A DNA stretch of 64,000 bases, from positions 62,001 through 126,000 of the forward strand of contig NZ_JAPNTZ010000001.1 of the NCBI RefSeq assembly GCF_026626335.1, written 5' to 3'. Below, in pieces: positions 5,029 to 34,979 of the stretch (its first letter is position 1; the number at the start of each line of letters is the position of its first letter). Both the position numbers and the translations under genes were made by a program. This DNA comes from Paractinoplanes pyxinae (lineage in GTDB: Bacteria; Actinomycetota; Actinomycetes; Mycobacteriales; Micromonosporaceae). The notes under the pieces are model-generated. The model did not search any database. It was not told the origin of the DNA and saw nothing but the letters and a program-made list of their open reading frames with translations.

Positions 5029-5071
5029 TCGGTAGGGAACCGTCGGGCCGGTCCCGCGGCGGTCCGCCTGC

Positions 5072-5686
5072 TCAGGGTGCTGCGATGAATCCGCGCAGGA
5101 GCGTGCTGACAGCGGCTGTGAGGTCGGCGCGGTTGGCCTCGGTGCCGGGATGCGGTGCGGTGCGCGCGCCCGCGCCGGCCAGCCGGTCGAACAGCAGACC
5201 GTCGATGCAGGCGACGAGGTGGTCGCCGGCCCGGCGCGGATCCCGGGCGCCGGCGGCCGCGAGCATCGCCGCCGACTGGGCTCGCGAGTCGTCGCCGTAG
5301 GACAGGATGGTCCGGATCTCCGGATGGTGGGTGGCCTCGAGCAGACAGGCATAGCGAGCGAGAGTGCGGTTGCGCCCCTCGTCCATCCACTGGTCGAGCA
5401 CCGCGGCGATCGAGGCGGCAGTCGACTCGACGTCGGTCAGAGCCGGGGCGTCGCCGCCGGCCCGGTCGGGCAGCTGCCCGGCCCGCAGGTCCGCACGGTC
5501 GAGCTCGGCGATGCGGCGCACCACCGCCTCGATGAGCGCCTTGCGGGTCCGGAAGTAGGCCGACGTGGTTCCCTCGGGCAGGGCGGCTCGGCGATCGACG
5601 GCCCGGTGGGTCAGGCCGCGCATGCCTCCCGCGGCGAGAACGTCGATCGCGGTGTCGGTGAGCAACTGAAAACGATCTGCAGGCAC
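5072..5686 (-). CDS. TetR-family repressor
   Basis: A 204-residue regulator with an N-terminal helix-turn-helix (helices around residues 8-50, including GLTHRAVDRRAALPEGTTSAYF) and a helical ligand domain, as in TetR proteins of the usual length. The start is a GTG at 5686 preceded by a GGGAAGGGA ribosome site. It is divergent from an FAD monooxygenase with only 60 bp between them, and that gap holds two inverted repeats. The arrangement suggests that it represses both itself and the monooxygenase and is released by the monooxygenase substrate. The ligand cannot be predicted. Confidence 0.88.
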   Translation of the reverse strand: MPADRFQLLTDTAIDVLAAGGMRGLTHRAVDRRAALPEGTTSAYFRTRKALIEAVVRRIAELDRADLRAGQLPDRAGGDAPALTDVESTAASIAAVLDQWMDEGRNRTLARYACLLEATHHPEIRTILSYGDDSRAQSAAMLAAAGARDPRRAGDHLVACIDGLLFDRLAGAGARTAPHPGTEANRADLTAAVSTLLRGFIAAP

Positions 5687-5699
5687 GGTGTCCCTTCCC

Positions 5700-5717
5700 C
5701 TTCTACATCTGTAGTAT
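5700..5717. promoter_or_regulatory. Putative TetR operator 1
   Basis: CTTCTAC-ATCT-GTAGTAT is an imperfect copy of the neighbouring palindrome; the CTAC/GTAG core is conserved. It sits next to the start of the TetR gene and is read as an autoregulatory site. Confidence 0.55.
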
Positions 5718-5719
5718 CG

Positions 5720-5737
5720 CTTCTACGCCTGTAGAAG
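5720..5737. promoter_or_regulatory. Putative TetR operator 2
   Basis: CTTCTAC-GCCT-GTAGAAG is a perfect 7-4-7 inverted repeat. Its right arm overlaps the AAGGAG ribosome site of the monooxygenase at 5747. Centre-to-centre spacing from operator 1 is 20 bp, about two helical turns, which fits cooperative binding of two dimers. Confidence 0.6.
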
Positions 5738-5746
5738 GAGCGAGTC

Positions 5747-6877: not shown

Positions 6878-6969
6878 CCGGCGTACGACACCGGCGGCCG
6901 GCCATTCGCCCGGGCCGGCCTCGGGGTCGACGGCGGGCGCCCCGACGTGGTCGTGGCCGGCGGCGGAGG

Positions 6970-7842
6970 TCAAACTTTTTGGGCTTCACGTAGCTTGGTG
7001 GCGGCGAAGTCGGCGAGTTCCTCGCCGTTCTCGTAGTTGTCGGTGAGCACGTGGCGGGCCGTGGCCCAGCCGGCCGTCTCCCGCAGGCCGGGCCGCAGGG
7101 ACTCGCTGGAGAGGAACCGCCGCAGGTCTTTACCCACCTGGTCGCTGCGGCTCGAGGAAAGCCGGCCCGCTCGTTCGGCCACGGCCCGGAAGTGGCGGGG
7201 AACGACGATCAGCGTGTCGCCGGGCGGGAAGGTGACGTCCTCGAAGTCGTACCCGTCGAACTCGGGGTAGGTCACGTCGGCCGAGCGGAAGGTCACCCGG
7301 CGCAGGACCGCGCTGTCGTGGGCGCGGCCCAGGAAGCGCGTCTCGGTCAGCGCGCCGGCGAACACCGCATCCTCGATGGTGCAGCCGGCGAACTCGGCCT
7401 TGGGCAGCGCCGGGAACGTGCACCCGGCGAAGGACGTGCTCTCGGCCGAGAAGTACTTCATCCTGGCTCCGGTCAGGTCGATCGACTGCCAGGTCGTACG
7501 GGCCAGCAGGGTCTCGGTCAGCGTCGCCCGCACCATCGTGCAGTCGCTGACCGACCCGTCGGTGAACACGGCCCGGGCGAGGTCGGCCCCGTCGAAACGG
7601 CAGCCGCTGAACCGCACGTCCTCGAGGTGGGCGTGGGCCAGTGTGGCGTACCGGAAATCGATGCCGGCGATCGTTGGCGCCTGCGAGTCCAGGCCGCCGG
7701 CCGGAAACCCTCGCAGGTCGAGCAGCCCGTCCACCACGGGAAGCTCGAGGTCGAGCAGGGAGCTGCCGTCGCCCAGCCGCCGAAGCACCTCCGTGCGCAG
7801 GATCCCCGTACGCCAGCGGTCGATCAACTCGCGGCGCGCCAC
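6970..7842 (-). CDS. Pentapeptide-repeat-like protein
   Basis: About 290 residues with many degenerate A(D/N)LXX/F-type units (FRYATLAHAHLEDVRF, CRFDGADLARAVF, SFAGCTFP, AEFAGCTIEDAVFAG), forming the right-handed quadrilateral beta-helix of pentapeptide-repeat proteins from roughly residue 50 to 200. A helical C-terminal part of about 80 residues follows. The GTG at 7842 is preferred as start because AGGAG lies 7 nt upstream; an ATG at 7893 is in frame but has no ribosome site. Members of this family range from DNA-gyrase mimics to proteins of unknown role. The repeats here are irregular, so no function is assigned. Confidence 0.7.
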   Translation of the reverse strand: MARRELIDRWRTGILRTEVLRRLGDGSSLLDLELPVVDGLLDLRGFPAGGLDSQAPTIAGIDFRYATLAHAHLEDVRFSGCRFDGADLARAVFTDGSVSDCTMVRATLTETLLARTTWQSIDLTGARMKYFSAESTSFAGCTFPALPKAEFAGCTIEDAVFAGALTETRFLGRAHDSAVLRRVTFRSADVTYPEFDGYDFEDVTFPPGDTLIVVPRHFRAVAERAGRLSSSRSDQVGKDLRRFLSSESLRPGLRETAGWATARHVLTDNYENGEELADFAATKLREAQKV

Positions 7843-14006: not shown

Positions 14007-14791
14007 GACTCCTGAATGGAGGCGAGCTGCTCGGTGAAGCGGGCCATCACGTTCCCGTACAGCAGATGTCCCCAGCTCACCCGGGCCACACCGGCCGCGG
14101 CCAGCTCCGGCAGCGACGGCGTCATCGGCAGGCGCAGCACGTTCACCGGGCCGTCGACCTCGGCCAGGAAGCGGCGCAAAGCCTCGGCCTCCCACAACAG
14201 GATCGGGTACACGCAGTCGGCCCCGGCCGCCAGGTAGGCGTTCGCGCGGCGTACCGCCTCCGGCACGAGCTCGGCCTGAACCTCGGGGCCGGCCCCGGCC
14301 ACGAACGGCCCGACGAAAACGTCGATGCGGGCGTTGATGACGAGCGGGTAGCCGTCCGCCTGCGCGGCCCGCCGGACAGCCGCCAGCCACTCCGCCTGCC
14401 GCTCGGGCTCGCGGACATCGCCGGCGGCATGGTCGGTGTCCTCGAGGTTGCAGCCGGCCGCGCCCGCCGCACGCAACGCGGCCACCAGCTCGGCCGGCTC
14501 CAGGCCGTAGCCGGCCTCCGCGTCGACCGTCACCGGCGCCTCGACACCCGCGGCGATCCGCGCCGCCGCGGCGAACATCTCACCGGCCGGCGCCTTCTCG
14601 TGATCGTCGAAGCCGAGCGTGGCGGCGACGCCGGCGCTGGTCGTCGCGACCACGGGAAAGCCGGCCGCGACCACGGCTTTCGCGGTGGCCACGTCCCAGG
14701 CGTTGGGCAGCAGCAGCGGGGCGCCCGGACGGTGCAGCGCCCTCAGCCGATCGCAGCGGGTCTCGAGCTCGGTGGTCCGCGAGGCAGTCAT
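14003..14791 (-). CDS. Isocitrate lyase/PEP mutase family protein
   Basis: 262 residues forming a single TIM barrel of the ICL/PEPM superfamily: LLPNAWDVATAK, TTSAGVAATLGFDD, VDAEAGYG (the metal/substrate Asp), NLEDTDH, VINARIDVF and a final VSWGHLLYGNVM strand. The Cys-containing loop of true isocitrate lyases is absent, so a PEP-mutase, phosphonopyruvate-hydrolase or oxaloacetate-decarboxylase-like C-C or P-C reaction is more likely. No phosphonate genes are adjacent. The ATG at 14791 is preferred over an upstream TTG. It is convergent with the LuxR regulator. Confidence 0.8.
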   Translation of the reverse strand: MTASRTTELETRCDRLRALHRPGAPLLLPNAWDVATAKAVVAAGFPVVATTSAGVAATLGFDDHEKAPAGEMFAAAARIAAGVEAPVTVDAEAGYGLEPAELVAALRAAGAAGCNLEDTDHAAGDVREPERQAEWLAAVRRAAQADGYPLVINARIDVFVGPFVAGAGPEVQAELVPEAVRRANAYLAAGADCVYPILLWEAEALRRFLAEVDGPVNVLRLPMTPSLPELAAAGVARVSWGHLLYGNVMARFTEQLASIQES

Positions 14792-21567: not shown

Positions 21568-22734
21568 CTACCGGCGGGGAGCCACGGGCGCGGAGAGGCT
21601 GCCGCCGAACAGGCGCTGGTCGACCTCGTTGAGCGACAGCTTCAACGCGCCCAGGGCGACCGAGTCGGCTCCCAGTGTCGAGGCGCGCACCTCGGGCATG
21701 CGCAGGCACAGCCGTTCGAGTTCGCGGCGCAGCGGGTCGAGCATCAGGTCGGCCGAGCGGGAGAAGCCGCCGCCGAACACGACCACCTGGGGGTCGAGGG
21801 TGAGCACGAGGGCGGCGGCGCCGACGGCCAGGTCTTTGACGTAGCGGTTGACCGCGGTGCGGGCGGCCTTGTGGCCGTCCCGGGCGGCGTTGAAGACCCA
21901 GGCGGCGGCGTCGTCGGGGCTGACCGTTTCCGGCACGCCGGGGCAGTTCTGCAGGTGCTGGGGGGCGTCGAGCCAGCGTACGTGCTTCAACGCCCCGATC
22001 TCGCCGGCCGCCCCGCCGAACCCGCGGCGCAGCACCCCGTCGATGATCAGGCCGGCCCCGGTGCGCAGCCCGGCCAGCAGATAGACGATGTCGTCGGCGT
22101 CGGTGGCGGCGCCCTTCCACTGTTCGCCCAGCGCGGCCAGCTTGCAGTCGTTCTCGATGACGGTCGGGCACGAGAAGTGGGTGGCCAAGTGGGCGGTCAG
22201 ATCGACGCCCTTCCAGCCCGGTAGCGGCGTGAAGAAGGTGGTGCGGCCGGCCGAGTCGACCGCCCCGGTGACGGCGACGGTGACAGCCCAGATGTCGGTG
22301 GGCGTCTTGCCCGCCTCGGTCAGGCAGGCGTCGACGACCTCGTCCAGCTCGGCCAGGCGGGCCTCGGGGCCGGCCTGGGCGTCGACCGCGTGCCTGACGC
22401 TGTGCACGATGGCGCCGTCCAGGTCGGCCAGCAGGGCCAGTATCTTGTGCACGCCCACGTCGATGCCGAGCACGTGACCGGCGCCGGCCCGGAACTGGTA
22501 GCGGCGGGCCGGGCGGCCGACCGCGCTGCTGGCCCCGGGCTCGAGCACGCTGGCCCAGCCGTCGGTGACCAGGCCTTGTGCGATCACGTCGACGGCGGGC
22601 CGGGAGAGACCCGTACGCCGGGACAGCTCGGTGACCGTGGACGGCGGATGGTCACGCAGGGCGCGCACGATGCTCAGCGAGTTGAGCTCGCGCAGCCGGG
22701 GCAGGTCGGCGCCGGTGGTGGTGACCTCGGTCAA
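21568..22734 (-). CDS. ROK-family transcriptional regulator
   Basis: 388 residues. An N-terminal winged helix-turn-helix (STVTELSRRTGLSRPAVDVIAQGL, residues 32-55) is fused to a ROK sugar-kinase-like domain (VLGIDVGVHKILALLADLDG, then IENDCKLAALGEQW and GAAGEIGALKH). The usual zinc-finger CXCGXXGC of the family is reduced to a short form around NCPGVP. ROK regulators sense sugars and repress sugar uptake genes. It closes a cluster on this strand behind the alpha-galactosidase and ABC importer, so it most likely controls them. Its stop abuts the stop of the convergent gene. Confidence 0.87.
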   Translation of the reverse strand: MTEVTTTGADLPRLRELNSLSIVRALRDHPPSTVTELSRRTGLSRPAVDVIAQGLVTDGWASVLEPGASSAVGRPARRYQFRAGAGHVLGIDVGVHKILALLADLDGAIVHSVRHAVDAQAGPEARLAELDEVVDACLTEAGKTPTDIWAVTVAVTGAVDSAGRTTFFTPLPGWKGVDLTAHLATHFSCPTVIENDCKLAALGEQWKGAATDADDIVYLLAGLRTGAGLIIDGVLRRGFGGAAGEIGALKHVRWLDAPQHLQNCPGVPETVSPDDAAAWVFNAARDGHKAARTAVNRYVKDLAVGAAALVLTLDPQVVVFGGGFSRSADLMLDPLRRELERLCLRMPEVRASTLGADSVALGALKLSLNEVDQRLFGGSLSAPVAPRR

Positions 22735-22798: not shown

Positions 22799-24286
22799 CT
22801 AGAGCGGGTAGGCCTGCGCGGCCGGGGCCAGGACCGGGGTGAAGTCGGCCTCGCGGCCGTCGACGGCGAACCGGTAGCGGCCGAGCTGCCGGATCTGCGG
22901 GCGCGCGGTCAGGTAGGCGGTCATTTTCTCCAGTTCGGTGGCGGTGAGCCAGCTCGGCGGGTCGGACACGGCCCGGAACCGGCAGATGTCGGCCAGGTCG
23001 CGCAGCCAGCCCAGTTGCTGGTCGGTGAGCAGGTTGAGCCGGCTGCGGAAGTAGACGACGTCCGGGTCGACCTCGGTCAGCGGCCGGTGCCAGAGCCGGT
23101 GCAGCGCGTTGACCACGGCGTTGCGGGCCATCGCGTCGGACGGGTCGTCGCTGGCGTAGTTCTGCCACATCGGCGCGACGTCGGGCCCGCTGCGCAGCCC
23201 GTCCAGCAGGCCGAGCGAGGGCAGCAGGATCGCGCCGCTGCCGAGCAGGTAGACGTCGTCCCCGGCCACCTCGCGGATCGCCGTCAGGGCGTCGCGGTAG
23301 GTCTGCTCGCGTTCGGCGTCGCCGGCCCGGACGCCCGGGACGGCCCCGGCGTTGATGAAGTCGAGCTTCAGATACTTGAAGCCCCACTCGTGCACCACCC
23401 GGTGGGTGAGCTCGCGGATGTGGTCGAGGGCGGCCGGGCGGGAGAGATCGAGGGCGTGGTAGCCGGTTCCCCAGTTGTGGCCGGCGATCACCGGGGCGCC
23501 GTCCGGGTCGCGCAGCAGCAGGCCGGGGTGCTGCTGCGCGAACTCGGAGCCGGGCAGGGCGATGAACGGAGCCAGCCACAGCCCTGCGACCAGGCCGGCG
23601 TCGCCGATCTTCTCGGCCAGCGCTCGCATGCCGGACGGGAACTTGTCGTTGGGGTGCCAGTCGCCGACCATCCGCTCCCAGCCGTCGTCGATCTGGGCCA
23701 CGTCGAAAGGCCGGCCGGTCAGGTCCTCGAGGTCCTTGGCCAGCTGCTGCTCGGTGATCGTCTCGTAGTACGCGTACCAGGAGCACCAGACGTTGCCGGC
23801 GCGCCGGTCACGGCGGCCCAGCCGCCCGGCCAACTGCCGGGTGTACGTGGCGAACACGTCGGCTTCCGGACCGTACGCCAGGAACCAGGGGGCCGCCCCG
23901 CGCTCGTACCACCCGGCCAGGGTGTCCCGGTCGGCCTGCAGCCGCGGCACGCCGAGCCCGAGCGCGCCCAGCAGCAGCACGTTGCCGTCGCCGCCGTCGA
24001 GGGCGGCCACCGCTGAGGAGTGGTGCCGGGCCGGGTCGTCCCAGACGTCGTCGTCGGCGGTGACCCGCCGCCGCGGATCGGCGATGCGCAGCGGCGGGCC
24101 GGAGAGCCGGCGCCACCCGCACGGGCTCCAGGAGTTCTGCCCGTGGCGGTAGAACAGGGCATCGCCCAGTCCGTGCAGCAGCGCGACGCGTCCCGGCGGC
24201 AGGATCAGGCCGCCGTCGGCTGCCTCGGGTGGGCCGGAGGCCTCGAGAGCGAAGGTGCGGCCGCCGAGCTCGATGAGCGATGCCAT
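22799..24286 (-). CDS. GH36-type alpha-galactosidase
   Basis: 495 residues without a signal peptide, so cytoplasmic. It has the melibiase core: DVAQIDDGWERMVGDWHPNDKFPSGMRALAEKI, GLWLAPF, the nucleophile Asp309 in YLKLDF, and Asp369 in RSGPDVAPMWQ as the likely acid/base. It is shorter than full GH36 enzymes (about 700 residues) and the N-terminal beta-sandwich is reduced. AAGGAG lies 7 nt before the ATG at 24286. It lies directly behind the binding-protein gene of the sugar importer and would release galactose from imported alpha-galactosides. Confidence 0.85.
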   Translation of the reverse strand: MASLIELGGRTFALEASGPPEAADGGLILPPGRVALLHGLGDALFYRHGQNSWSPCGWRRLSGPPLRIADPRRRVTADDDVWDDPARHHSSAVAALDGGDGNVLLLGALGLGVPRLQADRDTLAGWYERGAAPWFLAYGPEADVFATYTRQLAGRLGRRDRRAGNVWCSWYAYYETITEQQLAKDLEDLTGRPFDVAQIDDGWERMVGDWHPNDKFPSGMRALAEKIGDAGLVAGLWLAPFIALPGSEFAQQHPGLLLRDPDGAPVIAGHNWGTGYHALDLSRPAALDHIRELTHRVVHEWGFKYLKLDFINAGAVPGVRAGDAEREQTYRDALTAIREVAGDDVYLLGSGAILLPSLGLLDGLRSGPDVAPMWQNYASDDPSDAMARNAVVNALHRLWHRPLTEVDPDVVYFRSRLNLLTDQQLGWLRDLADICRFRAVSDPPSWLTATELEKMTAYLTARPQIRQLGRYRFAVDGREADFTPVLAPAAQAYPL

Positions 24287-24305
24287 GGTTCTCCTTGTCC
24301 CCAGG

Positions 24306-25646
24306 TCACTTGAAGAGGGCGTTGACCTGGTCGTTGGCCTTCTTGAGGGCGGTGGCCGAGTCGGTCTGGCCGAGCACCGCCGACTGGATGGCGTCCTGAA
24401 CGGTCTGGCTGATCTCGTTGCCGTGCTCGGTGATCGGCAGGAAGAAGGTGCCGTCGGCGGCCTTGGCCTCGTCCACGAAGACCTGCACATCCCGATTCTT
24501 CGCCTTGTGGGCGGCCAGCGCCTTCTCGCCGGCGCCCTGAATGGCCGGGAAGACGACACCGTTGCCGCCGACGATGTTCTGGCAGTCGGCCGAGCCCAGG
24601 AACTTGACCCACTTCCAGGCCGCGTCCTTGTGCTCGGTGCCGGCCCAGATCGCGTCGGACAGGCCGTTGATCGCCGTCTTGCGGCCCTGCGGCCCGGCCG
24701 GCACGGGAGCGAACGCGAATGCGGCCTTGGCGTCGTCACCCAGGTACGTGTTGATCGTCCACGAGCCGGCGAAGCTGATCGCGCCCTTGCCCGCGCCCAT
24801 CAGCGTGTCCCGGCTCAGCGTCGAGTTCTTGTCGAGCGCGGGGCTGTAGCCCTTGGCGATCAGCGACTTGTACCAGTCGATCGTGGCGGCCAGGGCGGGG
24901 TCGTCGTACTTGTACTGAGTTCCCCACGGATTCTTGTCGAGGTAGGTGAATCCGTTGCTCGCGGCCAGGTTGCCCCAGCCGTTCTGGCCCTGCGACCCGT
25001 CGGCCCACTCGGGCAGATACCCGTACACCTTGACCTTGGTCTTGTCGAAGGCCGGGTCGAGCCCGTTCTTGCCGTTGGCGTCGACGGTGGCCTTGGCGAT
25101 CAGCTTTTCGAAGGTGCCGCCGTCGGACGGGTTCCAGGTGAGATCGGCCAGGTCGGCCGGCTTGATGCCCTGCTTGGCCAGATGGTCCACGTTGTAGACC
25201 AGGGCCATGGTGTCCCAGTCCTTCGGCAGGCCGTAGCGCTTGCCGTCCTTGGTGAACAGGTCGGCCAGCCCGGCCTGGTACTGCGTCAGGTCGACCTTGT
25301 CGGCGGTCACGAACGGCTCGATGTCGAGGATCTGCCCGGACGTGACGAACTGCGGGTAGTACGAGCCCTGGTTGGTCCACACGTCCGGGGCGTCCCCCGA
25401 GGCGAGCTGGGTGGTGAGGTTCTGCCAGTACTGGTCCCAGGCCGACTGGGTGATCTGAATCCTGATGCCGGGGTTGGCCGCGGTGAACGCGTCGGCGCAG
25501 GCCTGGTAGGACGCCTTCTGGTTGTCGTCCCAGAGCCAGTAGTCGAGGGTGACGTTGTCCTTGTCGCCGGAATCGGCGGTGGCGGAGCAGCCGGTGAGGA
25601 CGGCGAGCGACAGCAGCACGGCCGCGGCCCGGGTTCTGCGGATCAT
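24306..25646 (-). CDS. Sugar ABC transporter substrate-binding lipoprotein
   Basis: 446 residues. It has a lipoprotein signal with lipobox LTGC (Cys near residue 20) and the cluster-1 solute-binding fold (VTLDYWLWDDNQ, SGDAPDVWTNQGSYYPQFV, YGLPKDWDTMALVYN, GKGAISFAGSW). It captures an oligosaccharide outside the membrane for the two permeases encoded upstream in the same transcription unit. Unusually, the binding-protein gene comes after the permeases. The alpha-galactosidase next to it suggests an alpha-galactoside ligand. Confidence 0.9.
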   Translation of the reverse strand: MIRRTRAAAVLLSLAVLTGCSATADSGDKDNVTLDYWLWDDNQKASYQACADAFTAANPGIRIQITQSAWDQYWQNLTTQLASGDAPDVWTNQGSYYPQFVTSGQILDIEPFVTADKVDLTQYQAGLADLFTKDGKRYGLPKDWDTMALVYNVDHLAKQGIKPADLADLTWNPSDGGTFEKLIAKATVDANGKNGLDPAFDKTKVKVYGYLPEWADGSQGQNGWGNLAASNGFTYLDKNPWGTQYKYDDPALAATIDWYKSLIAKGYSPALDKNSTLSRDTLMGAGKGAISFAGSWTINTYLGDDAKAAFAFAPVPAGPQGRKTAINGLSDAIWAGTEHKDAAWKWVKFLGSADCQNIVGGNGVVFPAIQGAGEKALAAHKAKNRDVQVFVDEAKAADGTFFLPITEHGNEISQTVQDAIQSAVLGQTDSATALKKANDQVNALFK

Positions 25647-25670
25647 CTGACTCTCATCTCTGCGGGAGGG

Positions 25671-26549
25671 TTATTTGCTGCCGGTGAAGTTGAGCGACTG
25701 GACGAGCCGCTTGCCGACGAAGATCAGCAGGAGGGCGACCGGGACGACCGACAACGTCGAGGCGGCCATCAGCCCGGTCCAGTCCGGCTGGGTGTTGGGG
25801 GACTGCTGCAGGAAGACGCCGAGGGCCACGGTGACCAGGCGGTTCTCCTCGCCCCGGCCGACCAGCAGCGGCCACAGGAAGTCCTTCCAGGCCCACACCG
25901 TGGTGGTGATGCCGATGGTGATCAGCGGGCCGCGGCTCATCGGCAGCGCGATCCGCCAGAAGATGCCCCAGGGGCCGTTGCCGTCGAGGATCGCGGCCTC
26001 CTCGACGTCGCGGGGCAGCGACAGGAAGAACTGGCGCAGGAAGAACACCGCGAACGGGGTCATCAGGATGGTCGGCGCGACCATGCCGGCCATCGTGTTG
26101 ATCAGGCCGAGGTCTTTGACGAGTACGAAGTTGGGCAGCAGCGTGAAGATGGGCGGCACCATCAGGGCGCTGATGATGATCGCGAAGACCAGGTCGCGGC
26201 CGGGGAAGCGCAGCCGGGCGAAGGCGTACCCGGCCATGGCGCAGAACAGCGTCTGGAACGCCGCGATCAGCCCGCAGTAGATGACCGAGTTGAGGATGTA
26301 GCGGGCGAAGTCGATGTGCGCGCCCGAGCCGCCGGCCGCGCGGGCCTCGGCCTCACTGGTCAGGCTGAGCACCCGGGCGAAGTTGATCAGGGTGGGGTCG
26401 CGGGGGAGCAGGCCGGCGTTGTCGGTCAGCAGGTCGCCGGCCGGGGTCAGCGCCGTACGGACCATCCACCAGAACGGGAAAACGGTGATCACCACGATGA
26501 CGGCCATGACCGTCCAGCCGAAGATCCTGCGCATGCGGTCCGTCCTCAT
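25671..26549 (-). CDS. Sugar ABC transporter permease (second)
   Basis: 292 residues with six transmembrane helices and the MalG-type EAA loop (EEAAILDGNGPWGIFWRIALP). Its ATG at 26549 overlaps the stop of the first permease by 4 bp. No ATPase gene is present; such importers in actinomycetes normally share a multi-purpose ATPase (MsiK type) encoded elsewhere. Confidence 0.9.
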   Translation of the reverse strand: MRTDRMRRIFGWTVMAVIVVITVFPFWWMVRTALTPAGDLLTDNAGLLPRDPTLINFARVLSLTSEAEARAAGGSGAHIDFARYILNSVIYCGLIAAFQTLFCAMAGYAFARLRFPGRDLVFAIIISALMVPPIFTLLPNFVLVKDLGLINTMAGMVAPTILMTPFAVFFLRQFFLSLPRDVEEAAILDGNGPWGIFWRIALPMSRGPLITIGITTTVWAWKDFLWPLLVGRGEENRLVTVALGVFLQQSPNTQPDWTGLMAASTLSVVPVALLLIFVGKRLVQSLNFTGSK

Positions 26550-27427
26550 GCCAGGTCCGAGGTGGACGCCCGCAGCAGGCGCATCTGGACGGCGGTGAGC
26601 ACGCCGAGGATCAGCGCGAGGAACACCGCCGCGGCCGAGGCGTAGCCCATCTGGAAGTACGAGAAGGCCTGCTGATAGATGAAGTAGTAGAGGACCCGGG
26701 TGGCGCCGGCCGGATCGCCCTGCGTGGTGACCGCGATGGTGTCGAAGATCTGGAACGAGCCGATCAGTGAGACCACCAGCACCAGGGCCAGGACGGGGCG
26801 CAGCAGCGGCAGCGTGATCGAGCGGAACATCCGCCACTCGCCGGCGCCGTCGATCGACGCCCCTTCGTAGAGATACTGCGGAATCTGGAGCATCCCGGCG
26901 TACAGCAGCAGTGCCGTGTACCCCGCGTAGGCCCAGGTGTTGATGGCCGCGATCGACGGCATGGCCAGCGCCGCGTCGGTGAGGAAGCCGACCGGGCCGA
27001 TCCCGAGCGTGGTGAGCAGGTGGTTGACGAAGCCGAGGTTGGTGTCGAGCAGCCACATCCACAGCAGGCCCACGGTGACGTTGGGGACCAGCCACGGCAG
27101 CAGCAGCGTCGCCCGCAGCACCACCGAGCGGGTCAGCCGGTGCATGAGCGCGGCCACGAGCAGGGCCAGCACGGTCTGCGACCCGATGTTGAGGACCACG
27201 TACCAGACGGTGACCAGCAGCGACCGCCAGAACTGGCTGTCGTGCACTAGCTTGTCGTAGTTGTCGGCGCCCACGAAGGCCGGAGTGCCGAGCATCGTGT
27301 AGTCGGTGACCGAGTACCAGGCGCCGCGGATGGCCGGGTAGCCGTAGAACACGGCGAACCCGGCCAGCACCGGCACGAGGAACCACCAGGCCGCGCGACG
27401 GTCGTCGCGCCGTTTCGTCGAGCTCAT
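26546..27427 (-). CDS. Sugar ABC transporter permease (first)
   Basis: 293 residues, MalF/UgpA type: a short cytoplasmic start (SSTKRRDDRRAAWW), six transmembrane helices, and the EAA motif EGASIDGAGEWRMFRSITLP near residue 190. It is the promoter-proximal gene of the operon permease-permease-binding protein-alpha-galactosidase-ROK. The 131-bp divergent gap upstream is AT-rich and separates it from the DUF4832 genes. Confidence 0.9.
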   Translation of the reverse strand: MSSTKRRDDRRAAWWFLVPVLAGFAVFYGYPAIRGAWYSVTDYTMLGTPAFVGADNYDKLVHDSQFWRSLLVTVWYVVLNIGSQTVLALLVAALMHRLTRSVVLRATLLLPWLVPNVTVGLLWMWLLDTNLGFVNHLLTTLGIGPVGFLTDAALAMPSIAAINTWAYAGYTALLLYAGMLQIPQYLYEGASIDGAGEWRMFRSITLPLLRPVLALVLVVSLIGSFQIFDTIAVTTQGDPAGATRVLYYFIYQQAFSYFQMGYASAAAVFLALILGVLTAVQMRLLRASTSDLA

Positions 27428-27558
27428 CCGCGCCCCCGCTTCATCCGACGGGTTGGCCCTTGCCAGCCGGCCCGATGTCGAATAATGATGTAGACCTTCG
27501 ATATTTTGTCAATACCTCTTCGTAATCCCCGGGCAACACCGACCCTCGGAGATCGACA
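27428..27558. promoter_or_regulatory. AT-rich divergent promoter region
   Basis: The gap between the ABC importer operon and the DUF4832 operon contains an AT-rich core (27478-27530, including GATATTTTGTCAATACC), in contrast to the surrounding sequence. It carries a short TATT-N5-AATA repeat at about 27502-27514. It is the natural target for the ROK regulator, but no clear operator can be read. Confidence 0.4.
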
Positions 27559-29454
27559 ATGAGAAGATCCCTCGGCGCCGTGGTCCTCGGCGTCCTCCTC
27601 GCCCTCACCCCGGCGGCCGTGGCGCACGCCGCACCGGCCGGACCCCCGCCCCGGCCCGCGGCCCCGTCCGCTCCCGACGCCGCCCTGGCGGTCCATCCGC
27701 TCGCGGCGGCGCCGGGGCCGATCGACAACCCGCTCAAGGGCTTCGCGAAGTTCTACTCACCCGGCGGCAACCAGAACGTCGGCTATCCGCACGCGCTGAC
27801 CTGGGGCTACTTCGGCCTGTCGGAGATCATGACCAGCGCCTCGAACTGCGGCAGCTACAACTGGTCCATCGTGGACAACATGCTGGCCGAGACGGCGAGC
27901 TACGGGAACCAGGCGGCGATCCGCGTCTACCTGACCTACCCCGGCGGCACCGGCAGCCACCCGGCCAACGCGATCCCGCCCTGCTTCACCGGCAACGTCG
28001 CGATGCGGGCCGACACGTACTGGAACGTCACGCACCCCGACTACGACAACCCGTTCGCACTGACCGCGCTGAAGAACTTCATCGCGGCCTTCGGCGCCCG
28101 CTACGACGGCGACCCCCGGCTCGGCTTCCTCCACCTCGGCCTGGTCGGGCTGTGGGGTGAGTGGCACACCTGGCCGTACGACACCGACACCGCCGACGGA
28201 CGGCCGAACTACATGCCCAGCGACGCCAACGGCGCCCAGCTGGTGGCCGCCTTCGACGCCGCGTTCAACCGGACGAAGGTCGAGATCCGCTATCCGGACG
28301 CGGCCGGCGGCGCCGCCAACAACCGCGACATCGGCTACCACGACGACTCGTTCTGCTTCCGCGAAGGCTCGCCGCTGCAGGGCGTCACGCTGCCGCAGTC
28401 GCTCGGCGGCGCGTCCTACGCGCAGCTGCAGCGCAACCTGGCCACCGGCACCGAGAACAAGTGGATCACCAGCTCGATCGGCGGCGAGCTACGCCCGGAG
28501 ATCCAGTCCACGGCGTTCGCGAGCTGGCCCAACGGTTCCGGCGCGGTCGACAACCTCAAGGCCTGCCTCGAGCTGACCCACGCGAGCTGGATGATCAACG
28601 AGCAGAGCGGCGGGTACGCGGCGGGCGACGCCAACGTGGGGGCCGCGGTCCGGCTGATGGGTTACAACCTCACGGTCGACAACGCCTACTACCGCGACAC
28701 GGCAAGTGGCAGCACGAACGTCGGCGTCCGGATCGCCAACACCGGCGTGGCCCCGTTCTACTACCCGTGGACGGTGACGCTCGGTCTGAAGAACAGCGGC
28801 GGAACGGTCGTACGGACGTGGGACACCAGCTGGGATCTGCGCAAGGTGCAACCGCTGACGATCCGGAACTTCCCCGACTGGAACGCGGGCGGCGACTATC
28901 GCGATTTCGGCTACCGGCAGTACTTCCAGCACACCGCCGACCTGTCCGGGCTGGCCAACGGCTCGTACCAGTGGGTGTTGCGCGTCAAGAACCCGCTCGA
29001 GGCGGTCAGCGCCAACGCCAGGAAGCTGCGCTTCGCCAACGCCACCCAGCAGTCGGACGGCTGGCTCGGCCTGGGCCCGGTGACCGTCGGTACGGGCGGC
29101 GGCGGGCCGGCCGGCTTCGAAGCCGAGGCCGGTACGCGTACCGGGGGAGCCGCAGTTGCCTCTTGCGCGGCCTGCTCGGGCGGCCAGAAGGTCGGCTGGC
29201 TCGGCAACGGCGCCACGCTCACCTTCACCGGCGTCCCCGGCGGCGGCCCGAAAACCGTCACCTTCCACTACCTGACCGCCGAGCCCAGGACGGCCACCGT
29301 CAACGGCCAGCCCGTCACCTTCCCGGCCACCGGCGGCTGGGACACGGTCGGCGCCACCGCCACCACGCTCACCCTGCCCGCCGGCGCCACCACGATCACC
29401 GTCGCCAACCCCGGCGGCTGGGCCCCCGACATCGACCGCATCACCGTCAGCTGA
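27559..29454 (+). CDS. Secreted DUF4832 protein with C-terminal CBM35-like domain
   Basis: 631 residues: a Sec signal peptide (cut near AHA, residue 25), an Ala/Pro linker, then the DUF4832 domain (about 55-500) starting NPLKGF. Conserved features include RVYLTYPG, GDPRLGFLHLGLVGLWGEWHTWP with Glu201, IGYHDDSF, SIGGELRPE with Glu310, and THASWMIN. The pattern looks like a TIM-barrel hydrolase with two candidate catalytic glutamates; no activity is established to my knowledge. Residues of about 515-631 (FEAEAGTRTGGAAV, GWLGNGATLTFTG) resemble a CBM6/CBM35 carbohydrate-binding fold. It is divergent from the ABC importer and probably acts outside the cell on a polysaccharide feeding it. Confidence 0.8.
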   Translation: MRRSLGAVVLGVLLALTPAAVAHAAPAGPPPRPAAPSAPDAALAVHPLAAAPGPIDNPLKGFAKFYSPGGNQNVGYPHALTWGYFGLSEIMTSASNCGSYNWSIVDNMLAETASYGNQAAIRVYLTYPGGTGSHPANAIPPCFTGNVAMRADTYWNVTHPDYDNPFALTALKNFIAAFGARYDGDPRLGFLHLGLVGLWGEWHTWPYDTDTADGRPNYMPSDANGAQLVAAFDAAFNRTKVEIRYPDAAGGAANNRDIGYHDDSFCFREGSPLQGVTLPQSLGGASYAQLQRNLATGTENKWITSSIGGELRPEIQSTAFASWPNGSGAVDNLKACLELTHASWMINEQSGGYAAGDANVGAAVRLMGYNLTVDNAYYRDTASGSTNVGVRIANTGVAPFYYPWTVTLGLKNSGGTVVRTWDTSWDLRKVQPLTIRNFPDWNAGGDYRDFGYRQYFQHTADLSGLANGSYQWVLRVKNPLEAVSANARKLRFANATQQSDGWLGLGPVTVGTGGGGPAGFEAEAGTRTGGAAVASCAACSGGQKVGWLGNGATLTFTGVPGGGPKTVTFHYLTAEPRTATVNGQPVTFPATGGWDTVGATATTLTLPAGATTITVANPGGWAPDIDRITVS

Positions 29455-29465
29455 GGGATCACACC

Positions 29466-30782
29466 ATGCGCAGAGCGCTCGTCCTCGCCCTCGCCCTGGT
29501 TCTGGCCACAGGCAGCCCCGCCGTGGCCAAGCCCGGCCCGACCTGGAAGCCCCTGTCCTACACCGCCGCGCCCGCCGACAACCCGCTCAAGGGTTTCCTG
29601 CCCTTCGCCGGCGACTACCAGACCTTCCCGCACAGCATGGAATGGTTCTATCTGCCGCTGCGCGACATCATGACCGGCCCCCGGCAGTTCCGGTGGGACG
29701 CGATCGAGAAACAGCTCGACGCGATCGCCGCCCGCGGGCACCAGAGCGCGTTCCGGATCTACCTCGACTATCCGGGCCGGCCCACCGGCATCCCGCAGTA
29801 TCTGCTCGACCAGGGCTTGGTCACCCGCCCGTATCCGGACTTCGGCAACAACGGCGTCAGCGTCGCCCCCGACTGGAACGATCCCCGGCTGATCACCTCG
29901 CTCGAGAACTTCATCACCGCGCTCGGCCGCCGCTACGACGGGGATCCGCGGATCGGCTTCCTCACGCTGGGACTGATCGGGTTCTGGGGTGAGTGGCACA
30001 CCTGGCCCTACGACGGCACGACCCGGCCCGAGAACTGGATGCCCAGCACCGCGAACCTGACCCGGATCCTGAACCGCTACGACGCCGCGTTCCGCACCAC
30101 CCGGCTGCTGGCCCGCTATCCCAGCCCGCAGAACAAGAACCTGAACATCGGCTACCACGACGACTCGTTCGCCTTCGAGACGCTGCCCGCGCAGTCCTGG
30201 CACTTCGTGCAGCGCCTCATCGACGAGGGCGTCACCGGCAAATGGCAGCGGGAACCGGTCGGCGGGGAGCTGCGTCCCGAGATCCAGTCCTGCCTGTTCG
30301 AAGACCCGATTAGTTGTACGCAGTACGAGGACTACACCGAGTCGGTGGCGCAGACGCACGCCTCCTGGCTCATCAACCACGCCGCCTTTGCCGGCGAGGG
30401 CTACACCGGCGACGAGTATCAGCGTGCGCTGTCCGCGGCCAGGTCCCTGGGGTACGAGCTGACGGTCACGCAGGCGGCGGTCGGCCGCGACCGCGTGTCG
30501 ATCCGGGTGGCCAACCGGGGGACCGCGCCCTTCTACTACGACTGGCCGGTCGAGCTGGCCGCGGCCGACCGGTCCGGGCGCATCGTCCGGCGCTGGACGA
30601 CCGGATGGTCCGTGGCCGGCATCCAGCCCGGGCCGGAGACCACGCTGTCGGCCCGGATCAAGGGCGTCCCGTCCGGCGCCCGGATCATGCTGCGCGTGCC
30701 CAATCCGATGCGCGGCGGCATTCCCTTGCGGTTCGCCAACAGCAGCCAGAACATCCGTACGGGATGGCTCACCCTCACCTAG
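29466..30782 (+). CDS. Second secreted DUF4832 protein
   Basis: 438 residues, a paralogue of the preceding gene, 11 bp downstream. Signal peptide MRRALVLALALVLATGSPAVA, then NPLKGFLPF, RIYLDYPGRP, LGLIGFWGEWHTWPYD with Glu176, IGYHDDSFAFE, VGGELRPEIQ with Glu268, and THASWLINH. It ends after the DUF4832 beta-sandwich (RFANSSQNIRTGW) and has no CBM. Two paralogues differing in a binding module suggest one enzyme for polymer and one for soluble pieces (inference). The start ATG at 29466 begins the signal peptide. Confidence 0.8.
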   Translation: MRRALVLALALVLATGSPAVAKPGPTWKPLSYTAAPADNPLKGFLPFAGDYQTFPHSMEWFYLPLRDIMTGPRQFRWDAIEKQLDAIAARGHQSAFRIYLDYPGRPTGIPQYLLDQGLVTRPYPDFGNNGVSVAPDWNDPRLITSLENFITALGRRYDGDPRIGFLTLGLIGFWGEWHTWPYDGTTRPENWMPSTANLTRILNRYDAAFRTTRLLARYPSPQNKNLNIGYHDDSFAFETLPAQSWHFVQRLIDEGVTGKWQREPVGGELRPEIQSCLFEDPISCTQYEDYTESVAQTHASWLINHAAFAGEGYTGDEYQRALSAARSLGYELTVTQAAVGRDRVSIRVANRGTAPFYYDWPVELAAADRSGRIVRRWTTGWSVAGIQPGPETTLSARIKGVPSGARIMLRVPNPMRGGIPLRFANSSQNIRTGWLTLT

Positions 30783-30794
30783 AAGGGGCCGCAC

Positions 30795-31841
30795 ATGAAC
30801 ATCGACGACCTGCCGCTGCGCGACTACACGCCCGTCCCGTCGATCCGGCGGCCGCAGACGTACGTCGCCCGCGCGGCGGCGCCGGTCGTCGATGTGCACA
30901 ACCACCTCGGGCGGTGGCTCGGCGACGGCGACTGGCTCATCCCCGACGCCGCCGAGCTGCTCGATCTGATGGATGCGGCCGGGGTCCGGACGATCGTCAA
31001 CCTCGACGGCCGGTGGGGAACCGAGCTCGACGCCAACCTGGACCGCTACGACCGGGCGCACCCGGGCCGGTTCGTGACCTTCGCCCACCTCGACTGGACG
31101 GCGTTGCAGCGGCCCGGGCCCACGGAGGCGCTGATCGCCCAGCTGATGCGGGCCCGTGACGCCGGTGCGCGCGGCCTCAAAGTGTGGAAAGACCTGGGGC
31201 TGGGTGTCACCGACGCCGACGGCGCGCGGGTGCTGCCCGACGACCCGCGCCTGGCTGATGTTTTCGCGGCGGCGGGCGAGCTCGGACTGCCGGTGCTCAT
31301 TCACACGGCCGATCCGCTCGCCTTCTTCGCCCCTTTCGACGTACGCAATGAAAGGCTCGAGGAATTGGCGGAGAACCCGGACTGGTGGTTCGGCGCGCCC
31401 GGCCACCCCACCTTCGACCGGCTGATGCAGGCGTTGGACACGGTGGTGGGAAACGCGCCCGGCACAGTGTTCATCGGCGCCCACGTGGGCTGCGCGGCCG
31501 AGGACCTGGGCTGGGTCGACGGCATGCTGCGCCGCCACCCCAACTTCCACATCGACCTCGGCGGGCGGCTGGCCGAACTGGGCCGGCAGCCCCGGGCCAC
31601 CCGCCGGCTGATCCTCGACCACCCGGACCGGGTGCTGTTCGGCTCCGACGCCTTCCCGGCCACCCGAGAGGCGTACGAAACGTATTGGCGCTTCCTGGAG
31701 ACCGAGGACGAGTGCTTCCCGTACGCGCCGGGCGCCCCGATCCCGCCTCAGGGCCGCTGGGACATCGCCGCGATCGCGCTACCGCCCGACGTCCTGACCC
31801 TGGTGTACGCGACCAACGCCGACCGCCTGCTGCGGCTATGA
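30795..31841 (+). CDS. Amidohydrolase-family (metal-dependent TIM barrel) enzyme
   Basis: 348 residues without a signal peptide. Metal-binding motifs are in order: DVHNHLGRW near 34-42, HTADPLAFF (His of strand 5) near 176, IGAHVGC near 229 and FGSDAFPA near 285 with the last Asp. This is the Amidohydro_2 group, which hydrolyses lactones, decarboxylates acids or cleaves amides. It is 12 bp behind the second DUF4832 gene and overlaps the kinase gene by 4 bp, so it likely handles a sugar-acid or lactone released by the pathway; the substrate is unknown. Confidence 0.82.
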   Translation: MNIDDLPLRDYTPVPSIRRPQTYVARAAAPVVDVHNHLGRWLGDGDWLIPDAAELLDLMDAAGVRTIVNLDGRWGTELDANLDRYDRAHPGRFVTFAHLDWTALQRPGPTEALIAQLMRARDAGARGLKVWKDLGLGVTDADGARVLPDDPRLADVFAAAGELGLPVLIHTADPLAFFAPFDVRNERLEELAENPDWWFGAPGHPTFDRLMQALDTVVGNAPGTVFIGAHVGCAAEDLGWVDGMLRRHPNFHIDLGGRLAELGRQPRATRRLILDHPDRVLFGSDAFPATREAYETYWRFLETEDECFPYAPGAPIPPQGRWDIAAIALPPDVLTLVYATNADRLLRL

Positions 31842-32695
31842 CCTCGGCCCCCGCGCCGGTGCTCGCCTGGCTGGCCAAGCACCTCAGCCCGGATACGAGG
31901 ATGCGGTCCCTGCACGGCGGCGAGAGCCCGTGGTGGGTCGACGCGACCACGTCGTTCGGGCCGCTGTCGGCGGTGCTCAGGTGTCCCAGCAGCCGTATCT
32001 CCGGCGAGCAGATCGTGACCAACGTGGCCGCGCTGGCCGTGGCCGAGAAGCACGGCCTGCCCGCGCCCCGGCTGCTCGCGGCCGACGTCGACGGCCGGGA
32101 AGCGGGTGTGCCGGCCAGCCTGGAGACCGTGGCCGGCGGGACCAGCGCCTGGCCCGCCCGGCCGTCCGCGATGTTCCTGCGCACGGCCGGCGCCGCGATC
32201 GCCCGGGTGCACACCGTCCGCCTCGACCCGCAACCGCGGCTGCCGTTGCGACGGCGGCCCATCGCGGTCGACGACTTCGCCGGGGACCGCCGGGCGGGCC
32301 GGATGCCGACCACCGATCTGCTCCGGCGGGCCGACGAGCGCGTACAGGCGATCACGCCGCCGACCGGGCCGACCGTCCTCGTTCACGGCGACGTGTGGCC
32401 GGGCAACGCGATGGCCGACGGCCACCGGGTCGGCGCCCTGATCGACTGGAAGACCGCCGGGACCGGCCATCCCGGCGTGGACCTCGGCGAGCTCCGCAAG
32501 CAGACGGCGATCATCTACGGCGACGACGCCGCCGCGCATATATTGCTGGGCTGGGAGCAGGCATCCGGCACCCGGGCCGGCGACGTCGCCTACTGGGACG
32601 CCGTGGCCGCCCTCAACACGCCGACCGATTCCTACAGTGCGGAGGCCGCGCGGCGGCGCGACGACTTCCTGCGGGCCGCCCTCGCCCGGTTGTGA
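31838..32695 (+). CDS. APH/fructosamine-kinase-fold small-molecule kinase
   Basis: 285 residues with an aminoglycoside-phosphotransferase-like fold: the catalytic loop VLVHGDVWPGNAM (Asp about residue 186) and the metal motif LIDWKTAGTGHPGVDLGEL. The N-lobe is degenerate. Its ATG overlaps the amidohydrolase stop (ATGA). In this context it more likely phosphorylates a sugar or sugar derivative than an antibiotic. A strong terminator follows. Confidence 0.75.
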   Translation: MTSAPAPVLAWLAKHLSPDTRMRSLHGGESPWWVDATTSFGPLSAVLRCPSSRISGEQIVTNVAALAVAEKHGLPAPRLLAADVDGREAGVPASLETVAGGTSAWPARPSAMFLRTAGAAIARVHTVRLDPQPRLPLRRRPIAVDDFAGDRRAGRMPTTDLLRRADERVQAITPPTGPTVLVHGDVWPGNAMADGHRVGALIDWKTAGTGHPGVDLGELRKQTAIIYGDDAAAHILLGWEQASGTRAGDVAYWDAVAALNTPTDSYSAEAARRRDDFLRAALARL

Positions 32696-32753: not shown

Positions 32754-33467
32754 TCAGCCCGTGAGGGTCCCGCGCAACAGGCTGCGGCCGGAATGGGTGG
32801 CGTCGCCGTCGTGCGGCTCGTCGCTGACGTCGACCAGGCGGTACCGCTTCAGGTCGGTGCCCGGCGGGACCGGCAGCACGGCGTCCGGCTGGTCGGAGAG
32901 GTTGCCGAGGGCCACCATCTTGCCCGGGTCGTCCGGGTCGAGCAGCCACACCTCGTGGAAGCCGGTGGTCAGCGGCAGGTTGCGGACGTCGATGCGAAGC
33001 TGCCCGTCGGACAGCACCCGCACGTCACCGCCCGCGTTCGGCGGCACCGTCTTCAACGGCGTCAGCGTCGCCCGCGCGGTCACCTCCTCGGCCGGCGCGC
33101 GGCCGGTGAAGCGGTCGACGGCCACCGTGCCGGCCACCGCGAGCACCGCCGCGGCGGCCGCGGCGAGAACCGGCGTCAGCCAGCGCGGCCGGGAACGGCG
33201 CGCCCGTTGCTGCCTGATGTCGACCACCGGCGCGACAGGGGCGGGCGCCCGTGCGATGCCCGCCTCGATGGCCTGCCACACGTGTTCCGGCGGCGGCGGC
33301 AGATCGCGCAGCGCCTGGACGTCGGAGCCGATGCCGGCCACCTCGCGCAGGGCCCGCATCTCGTGGCGGCAGACGTCGCACTGCGTCAGGTGATCGGATT
33401 CGCTCAGGTCCTCGAGTTCTTCAGAGAGCGCGAGTAGGACCAGCCGATCGGGATCCAAATGTTGCAC
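32754..33467 (-). CDS. Membrane anti-sigma factor (RskA-like, ZAS motif)
   Basis: 237 residues. The cytoplasmic N-terminus carries a zinc anti-sigma motif HLTQCDVCRHEM (H-x3-C-x2-C) near residues 26-37. One transmembrane helix lies near 98-118 (TPVLAAAAAAVLAVAGTVAV), and an exported C-terminal anti-sigma-K-type beta domain (GFHEVWLLDPDDPGKMVALG) follows. It would hold the sigma factor encoded just upstream. Its start overlaps the sigma gene by 47 bp, ensuring coupled synthesis. Release probably involves proteolysis triggered by an envelope signal. Confidence 0.88.
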   Translation of the reverse strand: MQHLDPDRLVLLALSEELEDLSESDHLTQCDVCRHEMRALREVAGIGSDVQALRDLPPPPEHVWQAIEAGIARAPAPVAPVVDIRQQRARRSRPRWLTPVLAAAAAAVLAVAGTVAVDRFTGRAPAEEVTARATLTPLKTVPPNAGGDVRVLSDGQLRIDVRNLPLTTGFHEVWLLDPDDPGKMVALGNLSDQPDAVLPVPPGTDLKRYRLVDVSDEPHDGDATHSGRSLLRGTLTG

Positions 33468-33999: not shown

Positions 34000-34154
34000 C
34001 GACCTCCTTCCTTCGATACGGGTTCCAACTGATAGTTCGCTCGCCGGGGCCCGCGCGGTTGCACCGATTTTTTCTTTCGATCATCCGCATCCGAGCGCCG
34101 CCGCCCCGGCGAAGGACCGGGCGTACCGAATCGACGATCACCCGAGGAGTTCCG

Positions 34155-34979
34155 ATGCGCAATCTGTCCCTCCGCCGCGCGGTCACGGCCGGCGCGGTCA
34201 CCATCCTCGCCCTGGGCGGCGCCGCCGCGCTGGGCGCCGGGCCGGCCTACGCCAAGGCGAACTCCCAGGTCACGGTCGTGCACGGCATTCCCGGGCAGGC
34301 GGTCGACGTCTACGTCAACGGCAAGAAGACCGTGCCGAACTTCCAGCCCGGCAAGGTCGCCGGCCCGCTGAGCCTGCCCGCCGGCCAGTACGACATCGCC
34401 CTGACCAAGCCGGGCGACGCCATCGGCGACGCGCTGCTGACCGTGGACGACGCCGAGGTGCCCGGCGGCGCCAACATCAGCCTGGTCGCCCACCTGAACG
34501 CGGAGGGCCAGCCGGCCCTGACCCCGTTCGTCAACGACACGGCCAAGCTGGCCGCCGGTAAGGCCCGCCTGATCGTCCGGCACGCCGCGGCCGCGCCCGC
34601 GGTCGACATCCGGGCCGGCGGCAAGCCGGTCTTCGAGGGCGTGACCAACGGCAAGGAGGGCAAGGCCGACCTGGACGCGGGCACCGTCTCGGCCGACGTG
34701 GTGCTGGCCGGCAGCGACACCCGCGTGCTCGGCCCGGCCGACCTGGACCTGAAGGAAGGCACGGCGACGATCGTGTACGCGGTCGGCTCGGCCGAGGCCA
34801 AGAGCCTCGACATCGTGACGCAGACGATCGACGGCCTGCACTCCGCGCCGGGCGGCGTGCCCAGCGGTGACGGCGGCCGCGCCGACGGCAACGGTTCGCT
34901 GCCCTGGTACGGGATCGGCGCGGTCGGCATCCTGCTGGCCCTGTTCGGCCTCACGCGGCTGGCGACCGGGCGTCGATGA
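34155..34979 (+). CDS. Exported DUF4397 protein with C-terminal membrane anchor
   Basis: 274 residues: signal peptide (cut near AYA, residue 33), then two DUF4397 beta domains (QVTVVHGIPGQAVDVYVNG and ARLIVRHAAAAPAVDIRAGG). A Gly/Asp-rich spacer follows, then a C-terminal hydrophobic helix (IGAVGILLALFGL) with a short Arg tail (ATGRR). That end resembles a sortase substrate, but no LPXTG is present; SLPWYG just before the helix is the nearest match. CGAGGAG precedes the ATG. Its stop overlaps the class F sortase start (ATGA). Confidence 0.82.
   Translation: MRNLSLRRAVTAGAVTILALGGAAALGAGPAYAKANSQVTVVHGIPGQAVDVYVNGKKTVPNFQPGKVAGPLSLPAGQYDIALTKPGDAIGDALLTVDDAEVPGGANISLVAHLNAEGQPALTPFVNDTAKLAAGKARLIVRHAAAAPAVDIRAGGKPVFEGVTNGKEGKADLDAGTVSADVVLAGSDTRVLGPADLDLKEGTATIVYAVGSAEAKSLDIVTQTIDGLHSAPGGVPSGDGGRADGNGSLPWYGIGAVGILLALFGLTRLATGRR

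Follow-up and report, generated by a model that had tools for sequence, protein, structure and literature searches.

Two neighboring genes of Paractinoplanes pyxinae, here called DUFa and DUFb, encode DUF4832-type proteins, and the evidence tips toward their being secreted hydrolases of an α-1,4-linked galactose/N-acetylgalactosamine (Gal/GalNAc) polymer, for instance fungal galactosaminogalactan, whose products would be imported and cleaved to galactose. That the DUF4832-linked barrel is a glycoside hydrolase (GH) of some kind we hold to be highly probable. The genes lie in a 64,000-nucleotide stretch (the window; positions 62,001 to 126,000 of contig NZ_JAPNTZ010000001.1) of a 10.18-Mb genome in 45 contigs. 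Minus-strand genes for a ROK protein, a GH36 α-galactosidase, and the solute-binding lipoprotein and two permeases of an ATP-binding cassette (ABC) importer are followed by divergent plus-strand genes for DUFa, DUFb, an amidohydrolase and an APH-type protein (Table 1). All parts named in an earlier reading of the DNA letters (the original prediction) are present, the ROK gene (21568–22734) lying just outside the span of 22799–32695 given there.

DUFa and DUFb are identical at 192 of 425 aligned residues (45%), and DUFb is homologous to DUFa along its length. DUFa exceeds the Pfam cut-off for DUF4832 (PF16116; 35.4 versus 29.2 bits), DUFb taken alone falls below it (26.4 bits), and neither reaches that of DUF4874 (PF16173; 14.6 and 16.6 versus 30.1 bits). 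Both have N-termini that by eye resemble signal peptides and are therefore probably exported. The glutamates to which the original prediction drew attention stand exactly where it numbered them, in the WGE and GGE motifs of DUFa (Glu201, Glu310) and DUFb (Glu176, Glu268), and YHDDSF occurs in both proteins. Conservation was judged from 203 DUF4832 rows aligned to one profile (E 1e-5) and drawn from 80 named loci, distant Bacilli and other genomes, and the genus of the streptococcal probe; the counts are of sequences, many of them close kin. In DUFb numbering, Glu176 is kept in all 197 rows that cover its column and Glu268 in 195 of 196, although one of the 195 is a fragment (L050:31-2238) and no genuine site; L090, the only row that differs, has GGE elsewhere and looks misaligned. 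Six rows do not reach the first column and seven the second, including L005 (neither motif in the alignment) and L145 (WGE, no aligned GGE). Trp174 (197/197), Arg97 (193/194), Arg217 (195/195) and Asp233 (194/195) are likewise near-invariant. Judged from these sequences, both glutamates are essentially invariant across the family.

An AlphaFold2 model of DUFb built from 39 aligned rows (predicted local distance difference test score [pLDDT] 92.6, predicted template modeling score 0.89) has a TIM barrel, with strands at residues 43–45, 58–64, 93–99, 163–167, 213–216, 229–235, 265–269 and 301–303, and a β-sandwich from about residue 332. By strand order, Glu176 of the model lies just past strand 4 and Glu268 lies where strand 7 ends, the places where the original prediction had proposed to look for them. 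DUFa probably has the same barrel, given its homology to DUFb; its own single-sequence model (pLDDT 41.2) is unusable. In DUFb the DUF4832 match (263–417) takes in the sandwich but only the last part of the barrel, of which a sub-threshold DUF4874 match (163–219) spans another piece. The earlier notion of DUF4832 as an enzyme is thus narrowed: the protein that bears the domain is likely the hydrolase, and the Pfam segment is one part of it.

Structural re-alignment covered the top 1,000 PDB chains from Foldseek. Among the 50 best rows, the first 23 by Z-score are all GH14 β-amylases (Z 16.0–17.1 over 256–268 residues, 3.5–4.2 Å), and the other 27 (GH5, GH35, GH42, GH10 and designed relatives) reach at most Z 14.2. 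The top GH14 match (Z 17.1, 265 residues, 4.0 Å, 12% identity) is a shared fold, which alone does not amount to membership. GH14 enzymes cut α-1,4 linkages, using a Glu acid on strand 4 and a Glu base on strand 7. GPSGELRYPSY of GH14 and GFWGEWHTWPY of the barrel are suggestive look-alikes whose residue equivalence is putative. 4zn2, which we take to be PslG-like, is Foldseek rank 50.

The family has one relative with published activity. SIR_1591 of Streptococcus intermedius combines a TIM barrel with DUF4832, and the purified protein disperses aggregates of α-1,4-GalNAc-rich Pel, according to a 2025 report (PMC12345266). DUF4832 genes adjoin pel genes in streptococci and clostridia (PMC7112168). 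DUF4832 occurs in 14 of the 247 genomes of the streptococcal-probe genus, 13 times above the cut-off, and in 12 of the 13 loci scanned (L155–L167) the profile matches at near full length (E 6e-53 to 2e-65), with GHWGEW and GGE. By Pfam, L169 carries a PelF-like transferase, PelG, CotH, VTC, DUF4956 and DUF4832 in a row; on inspection of their sequences, L168 and L171 have the same gene order and L170 is arranged otherwise. The Bacilli genome L152 has a PelF-like gene, PelG, DUF4956 and DUF4832. From gene order, the streptococcal-genus proteins are presumably SIR_1591 orthologues or near kin. With two invariant glutamates after strands 4 and 7 and the activity reported for SIR_1591, the secreted glycoside hydrolase of the original prediction appears likely.

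The genomic context set comprises the best 80 loci from one scan, which yielded 135 stretches encoding DUFb relatives; neighbors were counted by tblastn (E 1e-20), and α-galactosidases within 9 kb of the barrel gene. Among named loci, those of Actinoplanes sp. M2I2 and Paractinoplanes polyasparticus come nearest, their proteins being 86% and 81% identical to DUFb. The importer's binding protein is present in 62/80 loci, each permease in 61/80 and a ROK homologue in 34/80. GH36 occurs in 36 loci, all Actinomycetota, and GH31 in 19, from Bacillota, Bacteroidota and Chloroflexota; none has both, so that 55/80 loci in four phyla, mostly with an ABC importer, have an α-galactosidase gene near the barrel gene. 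A GH31 example matches solved GH31 α-galactosidases at 1e-125, and GH31 relatives with α-1,4-galactobiose specificity are reportedly described in a FEBS J paper. GH4 is found in 11 loci, all bearing GH36, and an example exceeds the NCBI α-galactosidase cut-off (552 versus 486 bits). The window's own GH36 protein matches the solved α-galactosidase 6lcj in sequence (3.6e-111), contains KLDF and GPDVAP, which we take to be the motifs holding the catalytic Asp residues, and by eye has neither signal peptide nor lipobox, which places it in the cytoplasm. Its genome has four melibiase-family matches in 10.18 Mb, so that any one gene would have a probability of ~0.7% of lying by chance no more than 9 kb from such a match; because the arrangement recurs in related loci, the locus is more than a chance assembly.

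At least two barrels with the WGE motif are encoded in 59/80 loci. Sixteen loci, each from Cohnella or Paenibacillus, have two barrels in one open reading frame (ORF) of more than 2,000 amino acids. The one such giant protein that was scanned has SLH, Big_2 and CBM_11 domains, and is thus probably attached to the surface of the cell. Among the giant-ORF loci (L059–L086), the reading frame appears split in L060, L066 and L076. In L074 a sulfatase-family gene (12687-14216; arylsulfatase model 212 bits, below the cut-off of 481) follows the giant gene, a hint that the substrate there might be sulfated. In nine Streptosporangiaceae loci (L030–L033, L035–L037, L039, L040) the DUFb gene lies between the gene for the binding protein and those for the permeases, in the opposite orientation. 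Sensor-like, response-regulator-like and second lipoprotein genes, so named from a look at the sequences, recur in many Bacillota loci (L050, L057–L085).

DUF4832 is uncommon, with hits in 5/398 genomes of the phylum and 24/398 of the class around a Lederbergia genome, and a DUFb relative occurs in 2/200 genomes of the order to which our genome, one of the two, belongs. The same genome encodes a third DUF4832 protein (C5:7092-8183) of DUF4874+DUF4832 type (165 and 137 bits); it carries both motifs, WGE and GGE, and a subtilase gene lies ~2.4 kb away. Other published occurrences of DUF4832 are in a dockerin-bearing cellulosome protein and in a polysaccharide region of Klebsiella.

In the mechanism that we propose, DUFa and DUFb would be exported and would hydrolyze an α-1,4-linked Gal/GalNAc polymer outside the cell, with Glu176 of DUFb, after strand 4, as the putative general acid paired with Glu268, where strand 7 ends. 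DUFa would be held on the polymer by its C-terminal module, which resembles carbohydrate-binding module (CBM) families 6 and 35. The importer would take up α-galacto-oligosaccharides and the cytoplasmic GH36 enzyme would split them to galactose, a step for which other phyla would use the unrelated GH31 α-galactosidase; the ROK protein would control one divergent promoter serving both arms. We infer the catalysis by DUFa and DUFb, the Glu roles, the α-1,4 linkage, endo action, the CBM-like role, the exact polymer, fragment import and ROK control. An α-1,4 galacto-configured polymer is favored because it is the kind of target reported for SIR_1591, because the neighbors split α-galactosides and because GH14 is the nearest fold by Z-score. 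The galactose-containing polymer originally suggested therefore stands insofar as the substrate is galactose-related and α-galactosidases are neighbors; the β-galactan, galactomannan and arabinogalactan named with it are less supported than an α-linked, probably α-1,4-linked, polymer. Galactosaminogalactan, which contains Gal, GalNAc and galactosamine (PMC12054363), would suit soil bacteria as a substrate.

Several observations weigh against this proposal. Activity in the import-linked clade is a prediction throughout, and the SIR_1591 assay scored aggregate dispersal, without product analysis or Glu variants in the portion of the report available; there too, deletion of SIR_1591 left aggregation and Pel production unaffected (PMC12345266). 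Two of the 14 streptococcal-genus hits fit poorly, L167 having no profile match and L145 a partial one. In a tree of 59 rows, the 39 import-linked rows separate from 20 Pel-type and other rows with support of 100/99, on a long branch that drew a program warning, and specificity may differ between them; within the tree, DUFa-type proteins of Actinomycetota and Bacillota form one clade (100/100). No solved sequence relative of the barrel came from single-sequence or profile searches, the DUFa match being to its CBM-like tail only. Sequence kinship with GH14 was rejected, since a local hhalign comparison of 38 DUF rows with 13 bacterial GH14 rows returned a probability of 0.4% and an off-register match, and PF01373 (GH14) matched none of 39 barrel members at E 0.1. 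Foldseek E-values rank GH35 β-galactosidases first (2.2e-8, TM-score 0.36, root-mean-square deviation 14 Å over the two-domain model), so the two fold measures disagree.

The gene neighborhoods raise further objections. The mutual exclusion of GH36 and GH31 tracks lineage, and the loci are not independent, yet two unrelated α-galactosidase families do recur beside the same gene. GH36, GH31 and GH4 are all absent from 25/80 loci, 20 of them with full flanks; some of the 25 are cut short (in L024 a piece of a GH36 gene lies right at the border), and in several Bacillaceae loci the gene, judged by sequence starts, looks solitary. In L058, L-rhamnose isomerase and rhamnulokinase genes (4718-7453) lie shortly before a run of DUF4832, importer and GH31 genes, and a rhamnose-containing substrate or another aglycone is possible in that lineage. 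The human GH31 relative MYORG cleaves Gal-α1,4-Glc and not Gal-α1,4-Gal (PMC9491548). No GalNAc catabolic gene was recognized in the conserved core, which points to galactose rather than GalNAc as the product.

These objections leave room for other readings. It is unlikely, in our view, that the barrels hydrolyze a β-linked or mixed galactose polymer (the backbone of arabinogalactan, galactan or galactomannan) from which GH36, GH31 and GH4 enzymes would strip α-galactosyl side chains. The lead of GH35 in Foldseek would fit such a polymer, as would the GH5, GH35 and GH42 rows next after GH14 by Z-score; nonetheless the GH14 rows stand 1.8–2.9 Z units above the clan GH-A rows. It is also suggestive that solved galactan 1,3-β-galactosidase chains match the DUFa tail over their final 124 residues (7byx, 3.2e-9), with a further match to 2wz8 (5.5e-6), and that the solute-binding lipoprotein weakly resembles GanS (47.8 bits, cut-off 700). 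The CBM35-like domain first described is a matter of resemblance, the CBM35 and CBM6 models matching this tail at 14.8 and 21.9 bits, below their cut-offs of 28 and 28.9. Against a β-linked polymer, Pfam found no β-galactosidase, mannosidase or arabinofuranosidase among eight recurrent-neighbor proteins, most neighbor clusters lying outside that scan, and the one studied relative, SIR_1591, is reported to act on an α-1,4-GalNAc polymer.

We give still less credence to the idea that the barrels release or remodel the organism's own exopolysaccharide, as Pel-cluster hydrolases would, with the importer recycling fragments. It draws on the location of relatives in Pel biosynthesis clusters (PMC7112168), yet the nine locus proteins scanned include no Pel protein and no polymer synthase or exporter, most of the recurrent neighbors identified serve uptake and breakdown, and the import-linked clade stands apart from the Pel-type proteins. 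That the DUF4832 proteins are non-catalytic surface sugar binders, with the Glu pair serving binding, seems very improbable: a C-terminal β-sandwich, CBM-like modules and the inferred status of catalysis in the import-linked clade would allow it, whereas the invariance of the glutamates at catalytic strand positions and the activity reported for SIR_1591 speak for hydrolysis.

Set against known systems, the proposed α-1,4-polymer hydrolases share with SIR_1591-type Pel hydrolases, compared here through their gene-order kin, a membrane anchor or signal, a TIM barrel, a DUF4832 sandwich and the same WGE and GGE glutamates; those proteins belong to polymer-making clusters, whereas ours have importer and α-galactosidase neighbors and form a separate clade. 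GH14 is the nearest solved fold by Z-score (up to 17.1), with the same linkage proposed, but no sequence relation was detected and DUFb has the extra C-terminal sandwich. The clan GH-A layout originally suggested holds for the TIM barrel and for Glu after strands 4 and 7, as in GH5, GH35 and GH42, with GH35 first in Foldseek; the clan's Z-scores are below those of GH14, and it gave no sequence match. The endo-α-1,4-galactosaminidases GH114, GH135, GH166 and GH191 share the TIM barrel and the kind of substrate proposed, galactosaminogalactan and Pel (PMC12054363). They use an Asp nucleophile and a Glu acid/base, according to a figure legend of the same source, whereas here a Glu/Glu pair is predicted, a distinction that rests on strand positions, as Asp233 is near-invariant too. 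Their Pfam families had no match in the barrel proteins, and no row so named is among the 50 best structural matches, which is no argument against kinship. ABC-importer glycan utilization loci of Gram-positive bacteria, for example those of the gan or msm type, have in common with ours a secreted depolymerase, a solute-binding protein with two permeases, a cytoplasmic glycosidase and a sugar-responsive regulator; the depolymerase here comes from a family unassigned in the libraries used.

The divergent region contains TTGCCA-17-TAATGATG on the plus strand and TTGACA-16-CATCAT on the minus strand, one promoter-like site per strand in the scan (shuffle mean 0.0). The plus-strand pattern is kept in the window and seven aligned related loci, with one base different in L053, and a block, ATTTTGTCAANACCTCTTCGTA, is kept in the window and seven aligned loci and altered in L048 and L053. 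Exact copies of the pattern and the block occur in 22/80 and 17/80 loci, respectively, and the block is unique in the 10.18-Mb genome with up to three mismatches allowed. It is a possible operator, and a shared switch could serve both arms; the ROK protein is a probable regulator of the locus. A palindromic ROK operator was considered and rejected, as the divergent region has no inverted repeat and the block is non-palindromic.

Table 1. Features of the DUF4832 locus (window coordinates)
Feature	Position	Strand	Evidence
ROK-family transcriptional regulator (winged helix-turn-helix + ROK domain)	21568–22734	-	PF00480 137.6 bits; HTH_IclR 28.3 bits
GH36 α-galactosidase (melibiase)	22799–24286	-	PF02065 50.6 bits vs cut-off 27; ATG at 24286
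Solute-binding lipoprotein of ABC importer	24306–25646	-	SBP_bac_8/SBP_bac_1; lipobox by eye
ABC sugar permease, MalG/UgpE type	25671–26549	-	PF00528 on 25671–26531; start ATG 26549 or 26534
ABC sugar permease, MalF/UgpA type	26546–27427	-	PF00528 62.8 bits
Divergent promoter region	27428–27558	both	Promoter patterns and conserved block ATTTTGTCAANACCTCTTCGTA
DUFa, secreted barrel + DUF4832 sandwich + C-terminal CBM6/35-like module	27559–29454	+	Glu201, Glu310
DUFb, secreted TIM barrel + DUF4832 sandwich	29466–30782	+	Glu176, Glu268, predicted catalytic pair
Amidohydrolase_2 family protein	30795–31841	+	PF04909 76.9 bits; accessory
APH-fold phosphotransferase (kinase-like)	31838–32695	+	PF01636 87 bits; accessory

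One possible start of the MalG/UgpE-type permease gene overlaps the 3' end of the other permease gene by four bases, and the ATG of the APH gene overlaps the amidohydrolase stop. The amidohydrolase and the sugar-kinase-like (APH) protein, counted as parts of the system in the original prediction, were rejected as core members; they occur in 5/80 and 1/80 loci and, being so rare, are regarded as accessory. The APH protein might be related to N-acetylhexosamine kinases. Outside the locus, a DUF4397 protein (34059–34979; 105 bits) is encoded near an RskA-type anti-sigma factor (32754–33467).

The family is not wholly undescribed, as the original prediction had supposed of the system, since its relative SIR_1591 has published activity (PMC12345266). 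No description of the import-linked DUF4832 locus was found in the literature covered, most subscription papers being outside the search. An importer-based glycan utilization locus is a known kind; the novelty lies in the depolymerase and in the α-galactosidases that accompany it. More tentatively, and with the chances somewhat below even, the family could be an unassigned GH family whose members combine a GH14-like barrel with a Glu/Glu pair and cleave α-1,4-galacto/galactosamino polymers, which would add a fifth solution to those of GH114, GH135, GH166 and GH191; its import-linked branch, in four phyla, would represent soil-bacterial feeding on fungal galactosaminogalactan or a bacterial Pel-like matrix by two complementary barrels, fused into one surface protein in Paenibacillus and Cohnella. 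If the proposed activity is correct, an unannotated protein family would gain a substrate class and a catalytic pair, and DUFa and DUFb would be a candidate pair of enzymes for attacking galactosaminogalactan and Pel, polymers found in the matrix of fungal and bacterial biofilms. The label "domain of unknown function" would then give way, in several phyla, to that of a predicted α-galacto-polymer depolymerase.

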